Source: Achatina immaculata (lineage: Eukaryota > Mollusca > Gastropoda > Stylommatophora > Achatinidae). Taken from it: 64,000 nucleotides of DNA. The stretch spans positions 54,669,762 to 54,733,761 of the forward strand of contig CM019692.1 of the NCBI GenBank assembly GCA_009760885.1, read 5' to 3'. Shown here one piece after another: positions 21,131 to 51,910 of this stretch (position 1 is the stretch's first letter; the number at the start of each line of letters is the position of its first letter). The translations under genes were made by a program, and so were the position numbers. The notes under the pieces were generated by a model. The model was given only the letters and a program-made list of their open reading frames with translations. It was not told the DNA's origin and searched no databases.

Positions 21131-22517
21131 CTTTCACGGTCAGCAACAATTTGTTTTAGTTGTTGCTTGTGGCCGCTGGTTTCATGCACGGTCTATACTT
21201 CTAATTGTGAAGTCTTGGCAAGTCTCCAGTGGTGTAGTACACACAAGGTTGTGTCTATTGTTACCATGCCCTAGATTACGATTATCGATCGATGGCCTGT
21301 TTACTTAGCCTCGTTTTTGTCTCTCGTGACATGCGCAGACTAGTGTTTTGGTCATCAGAGAATGTGTTGCTAGAGTAAGGATAGCTAGCTTAATAGTTTT
21401 GGAAGTTGCCTGCAGATAGATTAGGAGTGGATAGGTTTGTAGTTAGTTAGGGAGTCAAGATTGGAGTCTAGTTAGCTAGCTAGCGTTCGAATGTCCGTTG
21501 GTAGTTATGTCAGCATTGGCTTCCCGACATCTTCTGCCGGAGAAGAAAAGGAGTCTAGATTAGGACAGAGTTGAGTTGCATTGGCGTCCTTTTTCTTCAT
21601 TCGAATTGGCGTCAGGGGTGTGTTGACGAGTCTTTGAGGCATCTACTCAAGGCGGCGACGATGTCCAGCTTGGTCAGAATCTTGGGGGGCACCTCTAGCT
21701 CCTGGGCCCTAGGCAGCATAGTGAATGAAGCCATACCAGTAGCTTGTATCCAGTCCAGTGAAGCTGATCCTGAACCAGTATCCTGCCAAGAACCAGCGCA
21801 GCTTGTACGGTACATTTCGCTGGTACTACGTAGAAAGGGACAGGTAACAATTTGTAACTTAACTGTGACCTCTGAAATTTCAGCAAGAAGTCAAGCCAGA
21901 TCGTGCAGACTGAACATTATTAATTATAGCTCAAATAGTGAATGTTGGATTTATTTACTGTCATTCTCTTTGGAAGTTTGTTGGACAATTGAGTAGTTCT
22001 GATTCATCCAGTCGCCAGACATTCATACGGAGGGATATAGTAACGTTTTGGACTACCTTCAACTGTGAAGAAAATTTGTTTTTGGAAATGAACATTCTGT
22101 TGATTTGAAGTTGCCAGATATGCTTCTTCTGGATAGATTATGTAGAAACTTCAGGAACATTATTGTGTTTATACATTATGGACAATTATTTTGTACTGCT
22201 GTGGAATTTTTTTTGGATTTCAATTAATTAGCATTTAGTTTACCATTTTATTGTGATTTTGCATTAGCAAGGATGATATTGATATTTGACATTAGTGTAT
22301 GTGTCATTAATTTGAGTTTCTTTACTCTGATAGGTGCTAGAAAACTGAGGATTCTTAGCTAAAAGTTTTTTTTGAAGATTGCCATTTGCTGTTGTTACTT
22401 ATTTAATTAAAAAGTACAGTAATTATTCTGGACTGTATTAGGTGAAACTATGGTTGGATTATTTTGGGTAGCTTTTATATTGCTAATATTGTGTTTTTTT
22501 GTTTTGTTATAGATATT
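21131..22517 (+). other. LTR element internal region, left part
   Basis: No retroviral-type domain is visible. A 141-codon forward frame (21571-21996) has no recognised motif, and its reverse frames overlap, so it is not called as a gene. Palindromic GCTAGCTAGC occurs near 21474. Confidence 0.5.
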
Positions 22518-22530
22518 GGTTACATGTCTG

Positions 22531-24014
22531 GTTCTAAGGTCTGCAAACGCGCCATAAACAGCCTCTGGCAGTCAAGTCCAGCTCCTGGCCTTCCCGTGGC
22601 AGAACTGTTTAAACTGACAGGAGAAGGGGCGAGGGCGAATATCTGGCGCCTGAAACCAGTTACTTAGGGTAGATGAGTGGCACGTTTGATAGCTCATCTG
22701 CCGCTGTTGGCGAGATCTTCAGCTGCCGTGCGTGGAGCGGTGCTCCTCCCGGCCAATGAAGAAATTTGCAAATGAGGTTGCCGCGCAGCATCACTGCAGA
22801 AAAGGTGGTAGAAATGATAAAGCGAAGCAAACAGTCAAATCACGGCACCTCTGGTCTGGAGGTCGGCCACGTCCTGAGTGCAGTCATATCGGGTGAAATG
22901 CATGAACCGGCTTGTCCCAGAGGTTAAGACACTGCTGGCGAGACTCTTCAAATGCCGCGTGTGGAGTGAAGCTCTTCCTGGTTAAGGAAGTAAATGCGGA
23001 AAAGAAATAAAGGTTGCTGTGCAGCGCCGATGGGAAAAGGTGGTGGAAAGTGAAGTTTAACCGGTATGTCCAGTAGTATCGCTACGAGAGCTATACCACG
23101 GCACCTCTGCTCTAGAGGCCGGCCACGTCTGAAATACACCTACACTGGTGAAATATGCCTAAACCGGCACACACCAGGTGTGGAACTCGATGGCTAGACA
23201 TGTCATGCCACCTTCGCTCTAGAGGTCGGTAACGCCTGATAAACACCCATACTGGTGAATTTTGCCTAAACCGGCTCATACCAGGGGTGAATCTTGAAGG
23301 CTATGCATTTCACAGTACCTCTGCCCTAGAGGTCAGTCCCGTCTCAAACACACCCATACTGGGAAATGCCTAAACCGGCTCAACCCAGGGGTAGAAGTCA
23401 TTAGTGGCGAGGATTCGTCCTCCTGGACAAAAGCTACATCCTGGTCACAACAAGGAAGGGTAGCGGCCACGACCGCAAAATGCTGAAGTCGGAGACACTG
23501 GACCAGGGAAGTCTAGATAGGCAACCACCTCTCACCCGGCGGGGATGTCTGCGTATCCTAATCACGCTGAGGTTTTCCGGTGAGAAAGTCCAACCCTGGA
23601 CTGGATGGGCAATCACCTCTCACCCGGCGGTGATACACGGGTATCTCAAAACACGTCGAGGTTTTCCGGTGAGAAAGTCCAACTCTGGCCTGGGTGGGCT
23701 ACCGCCTCTCACCCAGCGGGGATGCACTGATATCCTAAACACGTCGAGGTCTTCCGGTGAGAAAGTCCAACCCTAGACTAAACTGGTGCAATGAAAACCA
23801 CGGTGTCACGCAATCCCGCTTCCGAGACCCACCAAGAATACAGGCTAAAGCACTGTGATACTCTGAACCCCTTGTGGTCCTTTCGTGGATCTCGTGTGGT
23901 CTATTTTGGAGCACACTGGGGACCATGGGACCTAACGAGGACCACAGGCGTGAATTCAGTAGGATCACAGTGCGGTTTTTAGTGGTAGAAGTGAACGAAG
24001 AAGAAGAAGAAGAA
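22531..24014 (+). mobile_element. GAA-tailed non-autonomous retroelement, full copy
   Basis: A 1484-bp element flanked by the 13-bp direct repeat GGTTACATGTCTG (22518-22530 and 24015-24027) and ending in (GAA)n, so it was inserted by target-primed reverse transcription. The head (about 22550-22700) matches the 5' region of the LINE at 45640-45830. Next come two ~224-bp units (from about 22708 and 22932), then ~115-bp units with CTAGAGG and CCTAAACCGGC, then three ~88-bp units with CACCTCTCACCCGGCGG and TTCCGGTGAGAAAGTCC (23515-23775). A final unique segment has AACGAGGACCACAGGCG. No protein is encoded. It depends on another element's machinery. Confidence 0.85.
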
Positions 24015-24027
24015 GGTTACATGTCTG

Positions 24028-24201
24028 AGTTTTTCCAGAAACAGTCTTTGCACTATGGAAGAGGTTAGGCTTTGCCATGCAGTGCATTGGAAATGTACCA
24101 GAAGCCCTGGAAGTATTATTGCTACATATGGGATGTCCCTAGGAGATTAGGCTGCAGCTGGAGATTCTTTTAAGCATATTTATGGATTATATAGTTCTTG
24201 T
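24028..24201 (+). other. LTR element internal region, middle part
   Basis: Non-coding continuation of the LTR element between two nested insertions. Nothing else is recognised. Confidence 0.45.
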
Positions 24202-40699: not shown

Positions 40700-43600
40700 T
40701 AGGAAATATACAAAAATATCCCAACAGAGAAGACAGCCAGTCATTATTCCCGGTAGGAAAAGGTGAAAAAAAAAGAAACACATACGGCTACAGACCTATC
40801 GGTCTCTTAAGCTGCTTAGGCAAAGTGATGGAAAGGACGGTCAACACTAGACTGATACAACACCTAGAAAAAAAATCAACTGATAAACAATGCACAGTCA
40901 GTATACAGGAAACATCACAGCACAGAAGATCAATTCATCTGCCTAAATCAAGAATGGAAGAAGGTCTCTTCCTGAAACTACTCAACAACAAGGTTGAATG
41001 AACAATGTTTTGGTGGATACAAGATTTCTTGAGATATAGAGCAGCCAGGGTCTAGATGAATGGAAAACTAAATCACAGAGTCCAAGCGTCCCTCAGGGAG
41101 GAGTCATTTCTCCCACTCTGTTCCTGATATACATTAATAACATCACAGACAGACTGCCCAGCTGCATTTCATGCTCCTTGCACGCTTTGCAAGCATATGA
41201 CTTCGCTTAGTGGAAAGTGCGGAAAAAAAAACAGCGGGCCATAGAATACATGAAACACTAAATACCATAGGAGACTGGGCCACAGAATACATGAAACACT
41301 AAATACCATAGGAGACTGGGCCACAAAATGGGAAGTGATGATAAACCCAATAACCACCTACTTCTTATTGTCCAACAAGACAGAAACCTTTAAACTAGAA
41401 ATACAAGGAAGGGAGCTTACACAGACAGAACAACCGACATACTTTTAAGTGAAACTGAACAAGAGGCTAACCTGGAAGCCACATCTGGTAAACACAGGAA
41501 ACAAAGGAATCAAAAAGTTAACTATGGTATAAAAAAGCTGGCAGGCGCAACCTGGGGAGCCAACAGTAACATACTAAAAAAAGCGTATGTCGGCACCATA
41601 AGGCCAACACTAGAATATGATTAGGCAGCTGGACCACAGCCTCCAACACAAACATCGCTCGCCTAACAAAAGTGTAGAACACAGGCCTGCGGCTGATCAC
41701 AGGAGGAATGAAGAGCACTGTGACAGTGAAGCTGGCGAAAGTACGCATGAATTGTACAGGATGAACCTATCAGACGGGAATCCCAAAGTGGACACGAATT
41801 AGTCAAATAGAATGTTGGAGGAATAGGTAGTGACGAAACAGAGGCTAGACAGAGATGAAAAGAGTGGGGGACGAAGGAACAGGACTCGAAGGGGGCGAGA
41901 CGTGAACGACAAAAACGACAATAAAAACAGACACGGACAGATAGAGGATGGAATGTAAAACTGATTTTTCTCATGTATTGGAAAGTGAAATGTGTTGATG
42001 ACAAAAGACAACATCAATGAATAAAAGTCACAAACTGTGAATCAAAAATAAAAAACGGGCTTAACTGAGAAGTGACTTATGAAATGTTTCTATCAGTTGG
42101 GCCTTTTAGTTCCTGAAGTGGCTTGAAGTGCGAATTGTGGTTACAACTATGATAACAAGAATTCGTTACAACGAATGCCACACACACGCAAACTCCACCC
42201 CCCCCCCCACCAATTCAGACGGTGACAAGCACTCCCATCACGGAGATGAAGAAATATACGCAAATTCAACCTCTTGAGGTCAGGGGTAAAAACAAAAACC
42301 TAATAAATCTACAAACAAAAGTTAATACGCCTGACAACCTACCCCGTGAACAAAAGAATTCAGGAGTTCACAAAACCCAGACTGAAAATAACCAGCTTCA
42401 ACCATCTGACAACACAGCTGCAACAACACTACAAAGACCTCCTTCCCACTTCTCATGAAGAAACTGAACCACTCCAAATTGTGGTGGAGCAGTCACTGTG
42501 AAAACATAACAGTCCTCACAGAGGTTCCTGGCACAAAGGACTGCATAAACAACTTTTCAGATGAAGACACTGACCCAGGAGCTGATTGACAGCAAATACA
42601 ACCCAGCTGAGTGGACTCATGTGTACACAGATGGGTCTGCATTAAAAAGTATTAAAAATGGAGGTGGGGGTGTTGACATAAGATACACAGATGGGAGACA
42701 AACCAAAAAGGCCTTCACAACGGGAAAGACTTCCTCCAACTACAGGGCAGAAACAACAGCCCTCCTCCAAGCCCTCAAGATACTTAAAACAGAAAACCAG
42801 CAGGCACCACACAAAATAGCCTTCTTCACAGACTGCAGGACACTTCTAGAATCATCAAAAAACAACAAACAATCCAAATGCAAACATACGGAAAATCACA
42901 ACAAAAATGAAGCGCTGTACACTATCAACAACTCTGGCCCTACAATGGGTATCATCCCACTGTGGAACTGCTGGAAGTGAAATACTTGACATTCTAGTCG
43001 AAGCTGGCAACAATAAAGATGAAACAAATCATCCAGTAAACCACCAAGAAGCGACAACTATAATCCGTAAACAGTACATATTTGACTGGAAGAAACAACT
43101 GAATTTCAGCAACGAACCAGATCCAATACAGCAACTACAAAGACATCAGCAAACCGTCCTCTTTCGCCTAAGGACAGGCTGCTGTAGACTACTGAGCCAC
43201 TTACATCGACACAACATGTCTCACACAGACGAGTGTCTATGCGGCAGTGGAGTCCTGACTCCAGAACATATCCTTCAAGGATGCCAAAACTATGCAGTCC
43301 TGAGGCTTGAGACCTGGCAGGAGGACACGAAGCTGGGGGAAGATCGTTGGGGCTACTATCAGGATCTAGGGAGGATTGTGGGCTTTGCCACGTCGACAGG
43401 GATCAGGATCTAGGGAGGATTGTGGGCTTTGCCACGTCGACAGGGATCAGGATCTAGGGAGGATTGTGGGCTTTGCCACGTCGACAGGGATCAGGATCTA
43501 GGGAGGATTGTGGGCTTTGCCACGTCGACAGGGATCAGGATCTAGGGAGGATTGTGGGCTTTGCCACGTCGACAGGGATCAGGATCTAGGGAGGATTGTG

Positions 43601-43830
43601 GGCTTTGCCACGTCGACAGGGATCAGGATCTAGGGAGGATTGTGGGCTTTGCCACGTCGACAGGGATCAGGATCTAGGGAGGATTGTGGGCTTTGCCACG
43701 TCGACAGGGATCAGGATCTAGGGAGGATTGTGGGCTTTGCCACGTCGACAGGGATCAGGATCTAGGGAGGATTGTGGGCTTTGCCACGTCGACAGGGATC
43801 AGGATCTGATGTAACCAACAACCTCGAAGG
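40700..43830 (+). pseudogene. Jockey-like LINE ORF2, degenerate
   Basis: Relic of a Jockey-group reverse transcriptase. It opens with YRPIGLLSCLGKVMERTVNT and RLIQHLEKKS (RT fingers, about 40785-40890), then decayed palm sequence. Next is KKLAGATWGANSNILKKAYV with GTIRPTLEY (about 41530-41620). From 42561 comes an RNase H domain: VYTDGSA (Asp), NYRAETTALLQALK (Glu) and FFTDCRTLLES (Asp). A frameshift near 42930 leads to ALQWVSSHCGTAGSEILDIL. The C-terminus has VLFRLRTGCCRLLSHLHRH and TPEHILQGC. About 400 bp of non-coding sequence (41810-42215) interrupt it. A 41-bp direct duplication lies at 41236-41317. Dead by many stops. Confidence 0.85.
43358..43807. repeat. 44-bp minisatellite, ten copies, at LINE 3' end
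   Basis: Ten nearly identical units of ATCAGGATCTAGGGAGGATT plus 24 more bases, covering the last codons (DLGRIVGFATSTGIRI) and stop of the Jockey-like ORF2. The 44-bp length is not a multiple of three, so only the first copy is in frame. Unit identity suggests recent expansion. A short unique 3' end follows. Confidence 0.96.
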
Positions 43831-45490: not shown

Positions 45491-46210
45491 AATTAGGATT
45501 GTATCATAATTATTGTTATTAATGTTCTTTTATTATTATTATTACTATTGACATATTTATTCTAGTTTAGTATTTTAATAAACTAAGGACTGTAATAGCT
45601 GGAGGTGGGGTGGAGGATACGCTATCCACTTCAATTAAATGCCTCCAAGGCGTGCGTCTCAAATAGCCTCTGACAGTCCAGGTCCAGCTCCTGGCCTTCT
45701 CGTGGCGGAATTGTTTAAACTGACAGGAGAAGGGGCGAAAGGCGAGTATCTGGCGCCTTATAACCGGACGCTTCGGGTAGATGAGACTCGTTAGTCTTGG
45801 TTGGTAGCTCATCTAGGAGAAGGAAGACTGATTTCAAACCCCCTGCTGCCTTGTAGGGTAGGGTCTGGCCAGAGTCAAAGGCTAGTGGAGCAAACTATAA
45901 AAAACCGGTGGAAGGCAAGGGGAAACCAACACTGTACATTCCCAAGAACAATCATGACAATCCACAATTCCTTGAATCATAACGACGTTAATGTGGGTTC
46001 CAGTGGAACCACCTCCACCGGTAGGGACTATCACGTGTGACAGGTGATACCAGATCGTCATCCAACTACTGTACGCAAAGAAAACAAAAGAAACACCACA
46101 GTAATTGTAACATGGAACATTAGAACATTAACAGAACTTGGAAAACTGGAAAACATCGAACAAGAAATGAAAAGAATGGAAATTAACATCCTTGGTTTAT
46201 GTGAAATGAG

Positions 46211-46696
46211 TCAGCCGCGCAGAGCTGCGCCGACCTGCACAGCGCGGGCGGTTGCTGTTGCGCAGGCCGACCGTTCTTTTGGCGAAAAAGCGCTCTCGAG
46301 TTCCGTGCGTGGGGAGACAGGCTTTCGCTCCCTTCCCGGACGGCGAGAGTTAAGGTGTTTCGATGCAGAAGCAAGTGGTTTGTCCGTCGAGCGAAGCATG
46401 TAAACGGCTAGCCAGCCAGGTTCGTGATAACGATGTAGTACGGTTTTGTCGACCGATGGTCTCGAAATTGGCCCATCTCTCGCAAAGAGTATCGGGTCTG
46501 CAGTATGTAACGTGTGTTGTTTGTGGGTGGCCAGGCTTTCTTTTCCGCTCGTTAGAGCAGAGAGAGCCGCCCCCGCCGGTTAAAGGAAATGAAACGCCGC
46601 CGGGGTCGAAAGGGATCCGCTCTGAGCAGAGCGCTGTCTCCCTTGCCCCGCGTCGGTCTGTCGGCAGATATCCGACAAAGGTTCGGTGAAGAAAGC
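46211..46696 (+). other. Probable rDNA 5' external transcribed spacer fragment
   Basis: About 486 bp of GC-rich sequence that directly precedes a perfect 18S 5' end and is unlike the AT-rich surroundings. By position it should be the 3' part of the 5' external transcribed spacer of pre-rRNA. The sequence itself is species-specific, so the call rests on adjacency. Open frames within it have no motif. Confidence 0.75.
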
Positions 46697-46721
46697 TATC
46701 TGGTTGATCCTGCCAGTAGTC
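46697..46721 (+). rRNA. 18S rRNA 5'-terminal fragment (25 nt)
   Basis: TATCTGGTTGATCCTGCCAG followed by TAGTC is the conserved first helix of eukaryotic small-subunit rRNA. Only the first 25 bases are present before the sequence switches to the retroelement. It is not a functional rRNA gene. Confidence 0.88.
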
Positions 46722-48690
46722 GCTGTTGGCGAGATCTTCAGCTGCCGTGCGTGGAGCGGTGCTCTTCCCGGCCAATGAAGAAATTTGCAAATGAGGTTGC
46801 CGCGCAGCATCACTGCGGAAAAGGTGGTTGAAAGAATAAAGCGAAGCACACAGTCAAATCACGGCACCTCTGGTCTGGAGGTTGGCCACGTCCCGAGTGC
46901 AGTCATATCGTGTGAAATGCATGAACCGGTTTGTCCCAGAGGTTAAGTCACTGCTGGCTTGACTTTTCAAATGCCGCGCGTGGAGTGAAGCTCCTCCCGG
47001 TTAAGGAAGTAAATGCGGAAATAAAGGTTGCTGTGCGGCGCCGATGGGAAAAGGTGGTGGAAAGTGAAGTTTAACCTGGTATGTCCAGTAGTATCGCTAC
47101 GAGAGCTATACCACGGCACCTCTGCTCTAGAGGCCGCCTACGTCCGAAATACACATACACTGGTGAAATATGCCTAAACCGGCACACACCAGGGGTGGAA
47201 CTCGATGGCTAGACATGTCATGCCACCTCCGCTCTAGAGGTCGGTAACGCCTGATAAACACCCATACTGGTGAATTTTGCCTAAACCGGCTCATACCAGG
47301 GGTGAATCTTGAAGGCTATGAATGTCACAGTACCTCTGCCCTAGAGGTCGGTCCCGTCCCAAACATGCCCATACTGGGAAATGCCTAAACCGGCTCAACC
47401 CAGGGGTAGAAGTCACTAGTGGCGAGGATTCATCCTCCTGGACAAAAGCTCCATCCTGGTCACAACTAGGAAGGGTAGCGGCCACGACCGCAAAATGCTG
47501 AAGTCGGAGACACTGGACCAGGGAAGTCTAGATAGGCAACCACCTCTCACCCGGCGGGGATGTCTACGTATCCTAATCACGCTGAGGTTTTCCGGTGAGA
47601 AAGTCCAACCCTGGACTGGATGGGCAACCACCTCTCACCCGGCGGTGATACACGGGTATCTCATAACACGTCGAGGTTTTCCGGTGAGAAAGTCCAACTC
47701 TGTCCTGGGTGGGCTAACGCCTCTCACCCAGCGGGGATGCACTGATATTCCAAACACGTCGAGGTCTTCCGGTGAGAAAGTCCAACCCTAGACCAAACTG
47801 GTGCAATGAAAACCACGGTGTCACGCAATCCCGCTTCCGAGACCCACCAAGAATACAGGCTAAAGCACTGTGATACTCTGAACCCCTTGTGGTCCTTCGT
47901 GGAACTCACGTGGTCTATTTTGGACCACACAGGGGACCACCGGACCTAACGAGGACCACATGTGTGAATTCAGTAGGTTCACAGTGCGGTTTTTGGTGGT
48001 AGAAGTGAACGAAGAAGAAGAAGAAGAAGATGTGAAATGAGATGGACTGGAGCAGGAAGCAGAGATCATAAAGACTTTAAAATAATATATTCCGGGGGAA
48101 ACCAGCTTAGAAATGGAGTTGGCATAATATTGGATAAGAAGACAGCAAGAATTGTGAAAGGCTTTTGGTGCATATCAGACAGAGTATTAATGGTTAAATT
48201 ACAGGGGCATCCAATAGATACAGATCTAATCCAAGTGTACGCACAAATGCAAAAAGGTTAAGGAGTAGTGGCTAAATAAGAAATGTAGTGAAATAGATAC
48301 ACACTGTCATGGAAACTCAAGAGATATGTACAAACAAATAAAAGAGTTAACAAACAAAAGGACATACCACAAAACTGGTTGCCTGAAGTCAAATAATGGG
48401 CAGAGATGAAATAATGGCAAGATGGACCGAATGCATTAGAGAACTCTATGAGGACAATAGAAACGAAATAGATATACGAAATAATAATGAAGGGCACCAC
48501 ATATTAAAAGCAGAAGTGGAAGAAGCGATCAAACACATGAAAAACAACAAATCACCAGACCAGATAAAATCATCAAGGAAGAATTGGAAGCATCAGGAGA
48601 GCTTGGAAATGATTACCAGATTGTTGAATGACATCTATAACAGTGATTATGTCCCATCAGACCTTTTGCAATCAGTTTTCATTGCTCTAC

Positions 48691-48943
48691 TGAGTGGCGA
48701 AGTGGTTAGTGCACTGGTCTCTCAAGGCGAAGGTCGGGGGTTCAAATTTGGGCCGAGGCACCCCAGTCACCCAGCTGTAGAAATGGGTACCCGATTTCTT
48801 CTGGAGTTGGGGAAGGAAAGGCGGCCAGGCGTGATACTGACCATATCACCCTCTAGTGTGCTGACAGGTGAAAGAAAATATGAACACTAACACCATATCC
48901 CTATGTGCCTCTAAAGCACGATAGGATTACCTTTACCCTTACT
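48691..48943 (+). mobile_element. tRNA-derived SINE, copy 2
   Basis: Inserted in the LINE RT between IALL and the continuation KEQGSVECEDHRT. A-box TGGCGAAGTGGTTAGTGC near 48695, B-box-like GGGTTCAAATTT near 48740. The body has CACCCAGCTGTAGAAATGGG and CCAGGCGTGATACTGACCAT, shared with the SINE at 3611. The tail is rich in CTTTACCC. Would be transcribed by RNA polymerase III. A second, identical copy (50757-51009) exists because of the tandem duplication. Confidence 0.82.
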
Positions 48944-50756
48944 TCTTGTACCAAAGAACAAGGTTCAGTCATATCGTGTGAAATGCATGAACCGGTTTGT
49001 CCCAGAGGTTAAGTCACTGCTGGCTTGACTTTTCAAATGCCGCGCGTGGAGTGAAGCTCCTCCCGGTTAAGGAAGTAAATGCGGAAATAAAGGTTGCTGT
49101 GCGGCGCCGATGGGAAAAGGTGGTGGAAAGTGAAGTTTAACCTGGTATGTCCAGTAGTATCGCTACGAGAGCTATACCACGGCACCTCTGCTCTAGAGGC
49201 CGCCTACGTCCGAAATACACATACACTGGTGAAATATGCCTAAACCGGCACACACCAGGGGTGGAACTCGATGGCTAGACATGTCATGCCACCTCCGCTC
49301 TAGAGGTCGGTAACGCCTGATAAACACCCATACTGGTGAATTTTGCCTAAACCGGCTCATACCAGGGGTGAATCTTGAAGGCTATGAATGTCACAGTACC
49401 TCTGCCCTAGAGGTCGGTCCCGTCCCAAACATGCCCATACTGGGAAATGCCTAAACCGGCTCAACCCAGGGGTAGAAGTCACTAGTGGCGAGGATTCATC
49501 CTCCTGGACAAAAGCTCCATCCTGGTCACAACTAGGAAGGGTAGCGGCCACGACCGCAAAATGCTGAAGTCGGAGACACTGGACCAGGGAAGTCTAGATA
49601 GGCAACCACCTCTCACCCGGCGGGGATGTCTACGTATCCTAATCACGCTGAGGTTTTCCGGTGAGAAAGTCCAACCCTGGACTGGATGGGCAACCACCTC
49701 TCACCCGGCGGTGATACACGGGTATCTCATAACACGTCGAGGTTTTCCGGTGAGAAAGTCCAACTCTGTCCTGGGTGGGCTAACGCCTCTCACCCAGCGG
49801 GGATGCACTGATATTCCAAACACGTCGAGGTCTTCCGGTGAGAAAGTCCAACCCTAGACCAAACTGGTGCAATGAAAACCACGGTGTCACGCAATCCCGC
49901 TTCCGAGACCCACCAAGAATACAGGCTAAAGCACTGTGATACTCTGAACCCCTTGTGGTCCTTCGTGGAACTCACGTGGTCTATTTTGGACCACACAGGG
50001 GACCACCGGACCTAACGAGGACCACATGTGTGAATTCAGTAGGTTCACAGTGCGGTTTTTGGTGGTAGAAGTGAACGAAGAAGAAGAAGAAGAAGATGTG
50101 AAATGAGATGGACTGGAGCAGGAAGCAGAGATCATAAAGACTTTAAAATAATATATTCCGGGGGAAACCAGCTTAGAAATGGAGTTGGCATAATATTGGA
50201 TAAGAAGACAGCAAGAATTGTGAAAGGCTTTTGGTGCATATCAGACAGAGTATTAATGGTTAAATTACAGGGGCATCCAATAGATACAGATCTAATCCAA
50301 GTGTACGCACAAATGCAAAAAGGTTAAGGAGTAGTGGCTAAATAAGAAATGTAGTGAAATAGATACACACTGTCATGGAAACTCAAGAGATATGTACAAA
50401 CAAATAAAAGAGTTAACAAACAAAAGGACATACCACAAAACTGGTTGCCTGAAGTCAAATAATGGGCAGAGATGAAATAATGGCAAGATGGACCGAATGC
50501 ATTAGAGAACTCTATGAGGACAATAGAAACGAAATAGATATACGAAATAATAATGAAGGGCACCACATATTAAAAGCAGAAGTGGAAGAAGCGATCAAAC
50601 ACATGAAAAACAACAAATCACCAGACCAGATAAAATCATCAAGGAAGAATTGGAAGCATCAGGAGAGCTTGGAAATGATTACCAGATTGTTGAATGACAT
50701 CTATAACAGTGATTATGTCCCATCAGACCTTTTGCAATCAGTTTTCATTGCTCTAC

Positions 50757-51009
50757 TGAGTGGCGAAGTGGTTAGTGCACTGGTCTCTCAAGGCGAAGGT
50801 CGGGGGTTCAAATTTGGGCCGAGGCACCCCAGTCACCCAGCTGTAGAAATGGGTACCCGATTTCTTCTGGAGTTGGGGAAGGAAAGGCGGCCAGGCGTGA
50901 TACTGACCATATCACCCTCTAGTGTGCTGACAGGTGAAAGAAAATATGAACACTAACACCATATCCCTATGTGCCTCTAAAGCACGATAGGATTACCTTT
51001 ACCCTTACT
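50757..51009 (+). mobile_element. tRNA-derived SINE, duplicated copy
   Basis: Same insertion as 48691-48943, carried along in the 2066-bp duplication. It is not an independent event. Confidence 0.82.
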
Positions 51010-51910
51010 TCTTGTACCAAAGAACAAGGTTCAGTTGAATGTGAAGACCATCGAACCATTAGTCGTATGAGCCATGTTACCAAAATCCTACCTCGTACTG
51101 TTATGAGAAAATTCAGGAGCAAAATAAAACGAGAAATCGCTGTAGAACAGTGCGGCTTCGTCAAAGGAAAAGGTACAAATGAACCCCATATATATAATTA
51201 GGTCTCAGCCTGAACGAAAAGAAGACAGAAGTGATCGTCATCTCAAAGAAAAGAATACCACCAAAGTGTAGCATTACCATCGATGGCACAAATCTGAAAC
51301 AAGTTGATAGATTCAAGTACTTAGGAACGAGTACAACAACTGATGGGAAATGTCACAACGAAATAAAAAGCAGACGTGCTCAGGCCAAGTCAGCATTCCA
51401 GAAAATGAAAAACATCTTGTGCAACAGATTTGTATCTATGGAAACAAGATTCCAAGTACTTAAATGCTACATCGAGCCAATTTTGTTTTATGGGTGTGAA
51501 GCATGATCTATGAATAAGAGAGTACACTGAGAACTGGATGCCATGGAGATGTGGTTTATAAGAAGGATGTTGAAGGTACCATGGACAGCCAAGAAAAACA
51601 ATGAAGAAGACTTAAGAGAGCCTGGAGTTAAAAAGTAAATTATAGCAAAGATCAGAGACAGACAAGCGAGATTTATAGGACATTTCCTGAGAAAAGGAAA
51701 ATTGGAACACACTGTGGCAACTGGAAATATTGAAGGAAGAAGAGACAGAGGAAGACAGAGAGTGAAGTTACTGGGTGGGCTGTCAGTGTGGCTAGGAATA
51801 AGTCACCGGTGGATCTCATAATCAAGTTTAAAGACAGGGAATTGTGGAGAGAAATGATCGCCTACGCCATGCGGCATGGCACTTGAAACTGAATTGAATT
51901 GTTATTACTG

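Follow-up and report, generated by a model that had tools for sequence, protein, structure and literature searches.

The insertion at 46.2 kb raises the question of how the beginning of a ribosomal RNA precursor came to stand in front of a retroelement. It lies in the window, by which we mean the whole stretch of 64,000 nucleotides that was analysed. An exact 12-bp target duplication, ATGTGAAATGAG, brackets a single insert (46211-48029), the first base of which may be G 46210, since a G stands outside the duplication at other loci. Both parts of the insert, pre-rRNA and element, were found inside this one duplication, as the preliminary description had proposed (Table 1). The GC content was 58% over 46211-46696 and 38.5% in the window. 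The canonical copy of the element at 22.5 kb carries a head of about 172 nt at the place where the window copy has the 5' ETS. This copy is flanked by a 13-bp duplication, GGTTACATGTCTG (22518-22530 and 24015-24027, the end bases being ambiguous), to which the first G of its head may belong.

Table 1. Window positions of the features of the 46.2-kb and 22.5-kb insertions and of their surroundings.
Feature	Position	Strand	Remarks
Usual head, HDV-like fold (putative ribozyme)	22530-22702	+	P1 GGTTCT/AGAACT at the 5' end; P2 CTCCTG/CAGGAG; P3 GCC/GGC; L3 TTCCCGT; J4/2 CTGA
Hairpin at the head/body border, 11 bp	22668-22702	+	-17.6 kcal/mol, z -4.0; most chimeras read have their donor breakpoint at its base
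Body of the canonical copy	22703-24015	+	
Head-like 5' region of the interrupted LINE-like copy	45661-45785	+	86% over 125 bp against the head of the 22.5-kb copy
Left target-site duplication ATGTGAAATGAG	46199-46210	+	exact; last G may be insert base 1
Pre-rRNA 5' ETS, 486 bp, from its 5' end to the 18S start	46211-46696	+	contiguous with 18S in 12/12 loci L009-L020; same 5' end at 448 places
18S rRNA nt 1-25 (TATCTGGTTGATCCTGCCAGTAGTC)	46697-46721	+	acceptor breakpoint C|A
GAA-tailed retroelement body, 1308 bp, apparently non-autonomous	46722-48029	+	without sense ORF of at least 150 aa (stop to stop)
GAA tail of the window body	48007-48029	+	
Right target-site duplication ATGTGAAATGAG	48030-48041	+	
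Tandem duplication of 46897-48969	48963-51035	+	99.95% identical; period 2066; 7-bp overlap

The insertion interrupts the EN-like reading frame of an older copy, which we take to be a LINE from a sequence motif. The translation of this copy across the empty site reads LGLCEM|RWTGAG, and searches of the fragment against Pfam and PDB gave no hits. Inside the same copy, the segment 48690-48960 is tRNA-like, ends in CCTTTACC and looks like a SINE. The 2066-bp tandem duplication spans most of the body and the LINE-like flank, and it accounts for a third body copy at 49-50 kb. At three 5'-truncated body copies (11.5, 17.0, and 32.9 kb), target duplications were sought and not found. Elsewhere in the window, several segments of 7001-36593 are repeated 3-5 times at a spacing of about 4-16 kb and with about 95-99% identity, and four repeated segments hold a 5'-truncated copy of the last 420-530 bp of the body. 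A 44-bp unit occurs 10.2 times at 43358-43807 with 100% matches. Pfam named two of the nine window ORFs, a mariner-type transposase and DUF6451; the transposase fragment lies at 852-1352 on the minus strand (PF01359, E=6e-11).

Pre-rRNA leaders and their junctions across the genome

The sequence CTGGTTGATCCTGCCAGTAG is widely used in print. An 18S beginning with TATCTGG would, together with the repeats, point to a lophotrochozoan. Rfam searches of the whole window at the gathering score gave no hits, the 25 nt of 18S being too short, and searches of the two element regions with E up to 10 gave 5 and 1 weak hits, which were judged to be chance. The 18S reading of these 25 nt was confirmed by other loci in the genome (145 assembled contigs totalling 1.65 Gb), where the same sequence continues into long 18S. 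Rfam model RF01960 matched at L041 (E=0) and L012 (E=1e-191), two loci where the ETS runs on into long 18S, amounting to about 1.66 kb at L041. At 12 loci (L009-L020, 12 of the 13 matches ending at the 18S nt-25 point), the same 486 bp was followed by normally continuing 18S of 169 to 894 nt. Among 34 other ETS pieces aligned with that of the window, 13 showed 100% identity to it (range 97-100%, the loci having been picked by similarity). The earlier identification of the left part as 5' ETS plus the start of 18S is thus borne out by the loci with long 18S.

The L009-L020 loci share a common 5' end, (G)TCAGCCGCGCAG, while their upstream DNA differs. A 21-mer of this 5' end occurred exactly 448 times genome-wide, and the control gave 0. 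The shared end would correspond to position +1 of the pre-rRNA, that is, to the Pol I start. The assembly is nearly without an rDNA array; the 18S 3' end has three exact matches in it, of which two belong to chimeras. It therefore offers no real rDNA unit on which the 5' end could be placed, and cannot exclude insertions inside rDNA.

A set of 20 loci (L041-L060) was picked by the pre-rRNA 5' end alone, from 26 listed places on contig C1 after setting aside five matched by the earlier search and the last one. In 19 of the 20, the pre-rRNA leads into the same body. The remaining locus, L055, is an older copy in which an ETS of 86% identity leads into the start of a diverged relative of the body. 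Hundreds of genomic places carry the start of pre-rRNA via this element. A unique accident was thereby rejected, since 448 pre-rRNA 5' ends were counted and all 20 loci chosen by the 5' end were fused to the body or its relative.

Target duplications were present at all of the L009-L020 loci (11-14 bp) and enclosed the whole chimera at 16 of the 20 L041-L060 loci (10-14 bp), with L058 as a seventeenth; they were sought and not found at L049, L051, and L055, and L037 showed only a doubtful 8-mer. Two unrelated RNAs within one target duplication, the mark of a template-jump chimera, were thus seen in the window, at L009-L020, and at most of L041-L060. An rDNA-specific R element would insert at a fixed rDNA site; the chimeras read sit at dispersed sites with differing flanks, the rDNA array itself being absent from the assembly. 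An assembly artefact, for which one might point to the 2066-bp tandem duplication at the window locus, is scarcely conceivable, since the same architecture is found at dozens of loci with different flanks and target duplications.

The exact ETS-18S/body junction of the window matched only itself in the 1.65-Gb genome. Across 53 loci (L021-L026, L008 (repeating other loci), L055 (too diverged), and L103 being dropped), 58 pre-rRNA 3' junctions fell at 28 different acceptor positions. Several sites were recurrent, namely 18S nt 21 (9 loci), nt 38 (11 loci), nt 220-223 (12 loci), and nt 667-670 (4 loci). Within the L041-L060 set, 8 of the 17 usable breakpoints (L041, L045, and L055 being left out) lay inside one 4-nt window, which occurred in 0 of 20,000 random sets.

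If the chimeras formed a stable subfamily whose head derives from rDNA, this would explain why head and body are common to many loci and why junctions are shared at nt 38 and nt 21, and a minority of the loci could stem from one chimera. This explanation is extremely unlikely for the loci as a whole. In a tree of the bodies (built without L055, and without L015, whose body was shortened by a tail-like insert), the four junction classes 21, 38, 222, and 668 were scattered over many clades, with 17 changes over 33 labelled rows and no shuffle control. The tree was poorly resolved, with 4 starred and 33 unresolved among 49 branches. Within one 15-row clade of highly similar bodies (SH-aLRT 98), 10 acceptor sites were represented, a number that rises to 11 when nt 707 is kept separate from 709/710. 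Similar bodies carry many different junctions, and so the chimeras were formed anew from the same masters and do not represent an inherited subfamily; such differing junctions between copies of one master are expected of LINE template-jump chimeras. The preliminary description had offered a choice between a one-off template switch and a stable chimeric family. The template switch from element RNA to unprocessed pre-rRNA remains the best-supported mechanism, while the choice itself did not hold, the event being recurrent and its junctions varying by locus without tracking body subfamilies.

Donor and acceptor ends of the joints

The head of the 22.5-kb copy shows nested P1, P2, and P3 with a C-N-R-A joint and with P1 at the exact 5' end, and may fold as an HDV-like ribozyme. 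A descriptor composed after the sequence had been seen, from general rules for such ribozymes, had this head as its sole match on both strands of the window; the match covers P1 (6 bp with one G-U), P2, and P3. The related head at 45.6 kb failed the descriptor, and the HDV-type models of Rfam gave no match to 22400-24100 up to E=10. GGTTCT, the P1 strand of the fold, begins 21 of 21 printed head copies, and three further copies match only from head nt 27, 27, and 49. A SIDE-like element would combine a 5' ribozyme, a LINE-recognised 3' end, and the lack of an ORF; here the head is ribozyme-like and the body has no sense ORF of at least 150 aa, and the 3' end of the partner LINE was sought and not found. 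A 38-mer of the body had no matches in viral contigs.

The hairpin at the head/body border ends directly before body nt 1. Most junctions fall at body nt 1, after 0-4 bases that fit the end of the hairpin (C, CC, GCC, TGCC) or after a stray base. The head was correctly described as missing from the window insert. In a sample made up of the first 40 among 3,614 body starts, 24 are preceded by the head, 2 by pre-rRNA, one of them, L103, being the locus of L044, and 14 by neither. All 14 plain truncations at the hairpin base are preceded by C, as in the hairpin, and Rfam at the gathering score named no family in the 741-763 bases searched for each. These truncations indicate that the enzyme often stops at the hairpin base, whether or not a jump follows, and the 2 of 40 chimeric starts indicate that the jump to pre-rRNA is a minority outcome. 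At L020 the hairpin was read through and the joint lies inside the ribozyme-like head, of which the last ~107 nt were kept; the donor RNA was thus an element with head and body. As a separate observation on body starts, eight follow one another on the same strand at G000:C1:39568227-39588378 with a spacing of 2.6-2.9 kb, as if a body copy had been incorporated into a tandem array.

On the acceptor side, 12 of 27 distinct sites lie at pyrimidine|A (Y|A) under maximal extension, compared with a background of 10.6% (P=7.7e-6); this count is without the L041 junction, where the reference ends, and its background was taken from 18S though two of the sites are in the ETS. The other 15 sites are not Y|A. 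Counted by junction, Y|A was found at 38 of 57, and with sites clustered at 11 of 19, a value reached in 0 of 20,000 random placements. The acceptor at nt 709/710 occurs with four donor points, namely body nt 1, 129, and 455 and the 5' end of another pre-rRNA. A fixed acceptor with varied donors would be expected if the enzyme jumps end to end onto RNA fragments whose 3' ends are fixed. Microhomology was rejected as a rule for the joints, most of which share 0-2 nt, with 5 shared at L010 and about 10 at L016.

Two acceptors pass the 18S 3' end into ITS1, L106 by about 110 nt and L105 by 353 nt, which identifies them as precursor and not mature rRNA. The suggestion that reverse transcription had met unprocessed pre-rRNA gains strength from these two loci. 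Mature 18S was rejected as the acceptor, the ETS-18S boundary being uncut in the chimeras read (most of which were chosen by the ETS) and two of them reaching ITS1. At L105/L108, where only the ends were read, the pre-rRNA 5' end and the 18S 3' end are 2.3 kb apart. For L106, no pre-rRNA was found in L109, where its ETS would lie, and hence not every chimera reaches the pre-rRNA 5' end. L039 and L040 both start at pre-rRNA nt 64/65 and have different target duplications; this start is possibly a second RNA 5' end, processed or alternative. At a further place, L104 (G000:C6:37127200-37128000), an 18S 3' end is followed by ITS-like sequence and then by degenerate TTAGGG-like repeats; there was no body in its 801 bases and no pre-rRNA match in L107.

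Four loci carry more than one pre-rRNA leader inside a single target duplication. L030 has three before the body (1-1154, 1-1154, and 1-525; duplication of 11 bp), and two each are found at L058 (1-1381 and 1-163; 13 bp), L019 (1-710 and 1-525), and L016 (1-656 and 1-103). The joints of the two equal leaders of L030 have an extra T in common, and these leaders might reflect a DNA duplication. A simple duplication does not account for L058, L019, and L016, because their leaders end at different places.

Fixed acceptor nucleotides and serial leaders could also arise by read-through, if hairpin-truncated bodies had inserted into 18S genes and Pol I co-transcripts from the rDNA promoter had then been retrotransposed elsewhere. 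Because the rDNA array is missing from the assembly, this is the main rival. Chimeras made in this way would likewise share one 5' end, lie in sense orientation, and pass cleanly from 18S into the body. Repeated insertion at one rDNA target would also keep the 18S nucleotide constant while the body starts vary, and serial leaders are possible if a chimera inserts into rDNA. However, many independent 18S insertions at recurrent nucleotides would be required of a machinery that elsewhere uses dispersed targets, and this route offers no evident reason for the Y|A preference. An exact search of the assembly for 18S AAGATTAAGCC no more than 30 bases after an element tail gave no match, which is a weak test with the rDNA array lying outside the assembly. 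One-step template jumping needs fewer events, and we consider read-through improbable.

The Y|A preference also bears on RNA ligation, in which a ligase, perhaps one like RtcB, would join cleaved 5' fragments of pre-rRNA to element RNA and the joined molecule would be retrotransposed. Cuts at Y|A would leave ends that suit an RtcB-like ligase. However, the usual donor end coincides with the stop of the 14 plain truncations and is not a Y|A bond, and the leader-to-leader joints lie at the pre-rRNA 5' end, which should bear a triphosphate. Ligation thus appears very unlikely here, although it is one of the routes listed for LINE-1 chimeras in the available text of a published report (PMC13174262).

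Probable template jumping and its relation to known systems

Taken together, the sequences are best explained by template jumping, at a probability of roughly 0.8: a LINE reverse transcriptase probably stalls at the hairpin and jumps to a cleaved 5' fragment of unprocessed pre-rRNA. The element would be a non-autonomous parasite of a LINE, its non-coding body lying between an HDV-like ribozyme head and a GAA tail. Target-primed reverse transcription by the LINE enzyme would begin at the GAA tail and then copy the body, and on reaching the hairpin at the head/body border the enzyme would often stall within its first 1-2 base pairs. Mostly from this point, but less often from elsewhere in the body or head, it would jump to a 5' fragment of pre-rRNA, presumably one cut at Y|A, enter this fragment at the 3' end, and copy it to its own 5' terminus, which would be +1, the likely Pol I start, or +64/65 in two loci. 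Sometimes a second jump would follow, from +1 to a further pre-rRNA fragment. The second strand would then be made, leaving one target duplication around the whole insertion. The reaction would take place beside nascent pre-rRNA, and the nucleolus is a plausible location.

A wider reading joins these points. It places element reverse transcription beside transcribing rDNA and treats the chimeras as a genome-wide fossil record of an unseen pathway that would cut unprocessed, 5'-end-bearing pre-rRNA at exposed Y|A (18S nt 21, 38, 223, 670, 894, and others), the enzyme regularly completing stalled copies with one or several fragments end to end. We advance this joint reading tentatively, at somewhat less than even odds.

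The chimeras were similar to those of LINE-1 with U6, U3, 5S, tRNA, and 28S rRNA, of which 28S/LINE-1 accounts for 18 loci (PMC13174262). Both combine a 5' non-LINE RNA and a LINE in one insertion with target duplications, and the LINE-1 chimeras are mostly in sense orientation for several kinds of RNA, as far as the available text of that report goes (PMC13174262). In contrast, the acceptor here is precursor rRNA, running from the 5' end over the ETS into 18S and twice as far as ITS1, with recurrent Y|A acceptor sites and serial leaders; in the main text of the report, as available, the terms '18s' and 'external transcribed' have 0 occurrences (PMC13174262).

In Drosophila, template jumps of R2 to U12 and tRNA and the R2/R1 SIDEs have been described, as seen in the accessible part of that source (PMC3414825). 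These are similar to our loci in having a 5' HDV-like ribozyme on a short non-autonomous element, a jump to a second RNA, and extra bases at the joint; they are unlike them in that the targets of the chimeras read here are dispersed and not in rDNA, the jump occurs mostly at an internal hairpin, the acceptor is pre-rRNA, and many loci are involved (PMC3414825). Template jumping by the R2 enzyme is also known in vitro, according to the available portion of PMC8857657. The WEIRD/MGL/Mg-SINE chimeras of Magnaporthe grisea likewise show recurrent LINE switches at hairpins and one double jump, with a preferred GCC motif where our joints have CTGCC|GCTG (PMC2104539). In the part of that report available, however, the acceptor is an abundant RNA of unknown function and no preference for acceptor ends is described, whereas here the acceptor is pre-rRNA and Y|A is preferred (PMC2104539).

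No published chimeras with ETS or pre-rRNA were found among the titles and abstract beginnings of the best-ranked literature matches, a scope outside which most subscription papers lie. SINEs derived from rRNA (5S, 28S) are heritable families. They have ribosomal RNA in a retroposon in common with the present chimeras, but here the rRNA was captured anew.

Template jumping by LINE enzymes is already known, and what is new here is the pre-rRNA acceptor, the scale, and the regularity. The many independent insertions record, at the level of single nucleotides, the stalling points of the LINE enzyme, the RNA ends that it accepts, and the pre-rRNA fragments in its neighbourhood, all of which are difficult to observe in germ cells. 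With the serial leaders, the genome provides evidence of repeated end-to-end jumping. Pre-rRNA is short-lived and mainly nucleolar, and thus the nuclear place of retrotransposition becomes testable.
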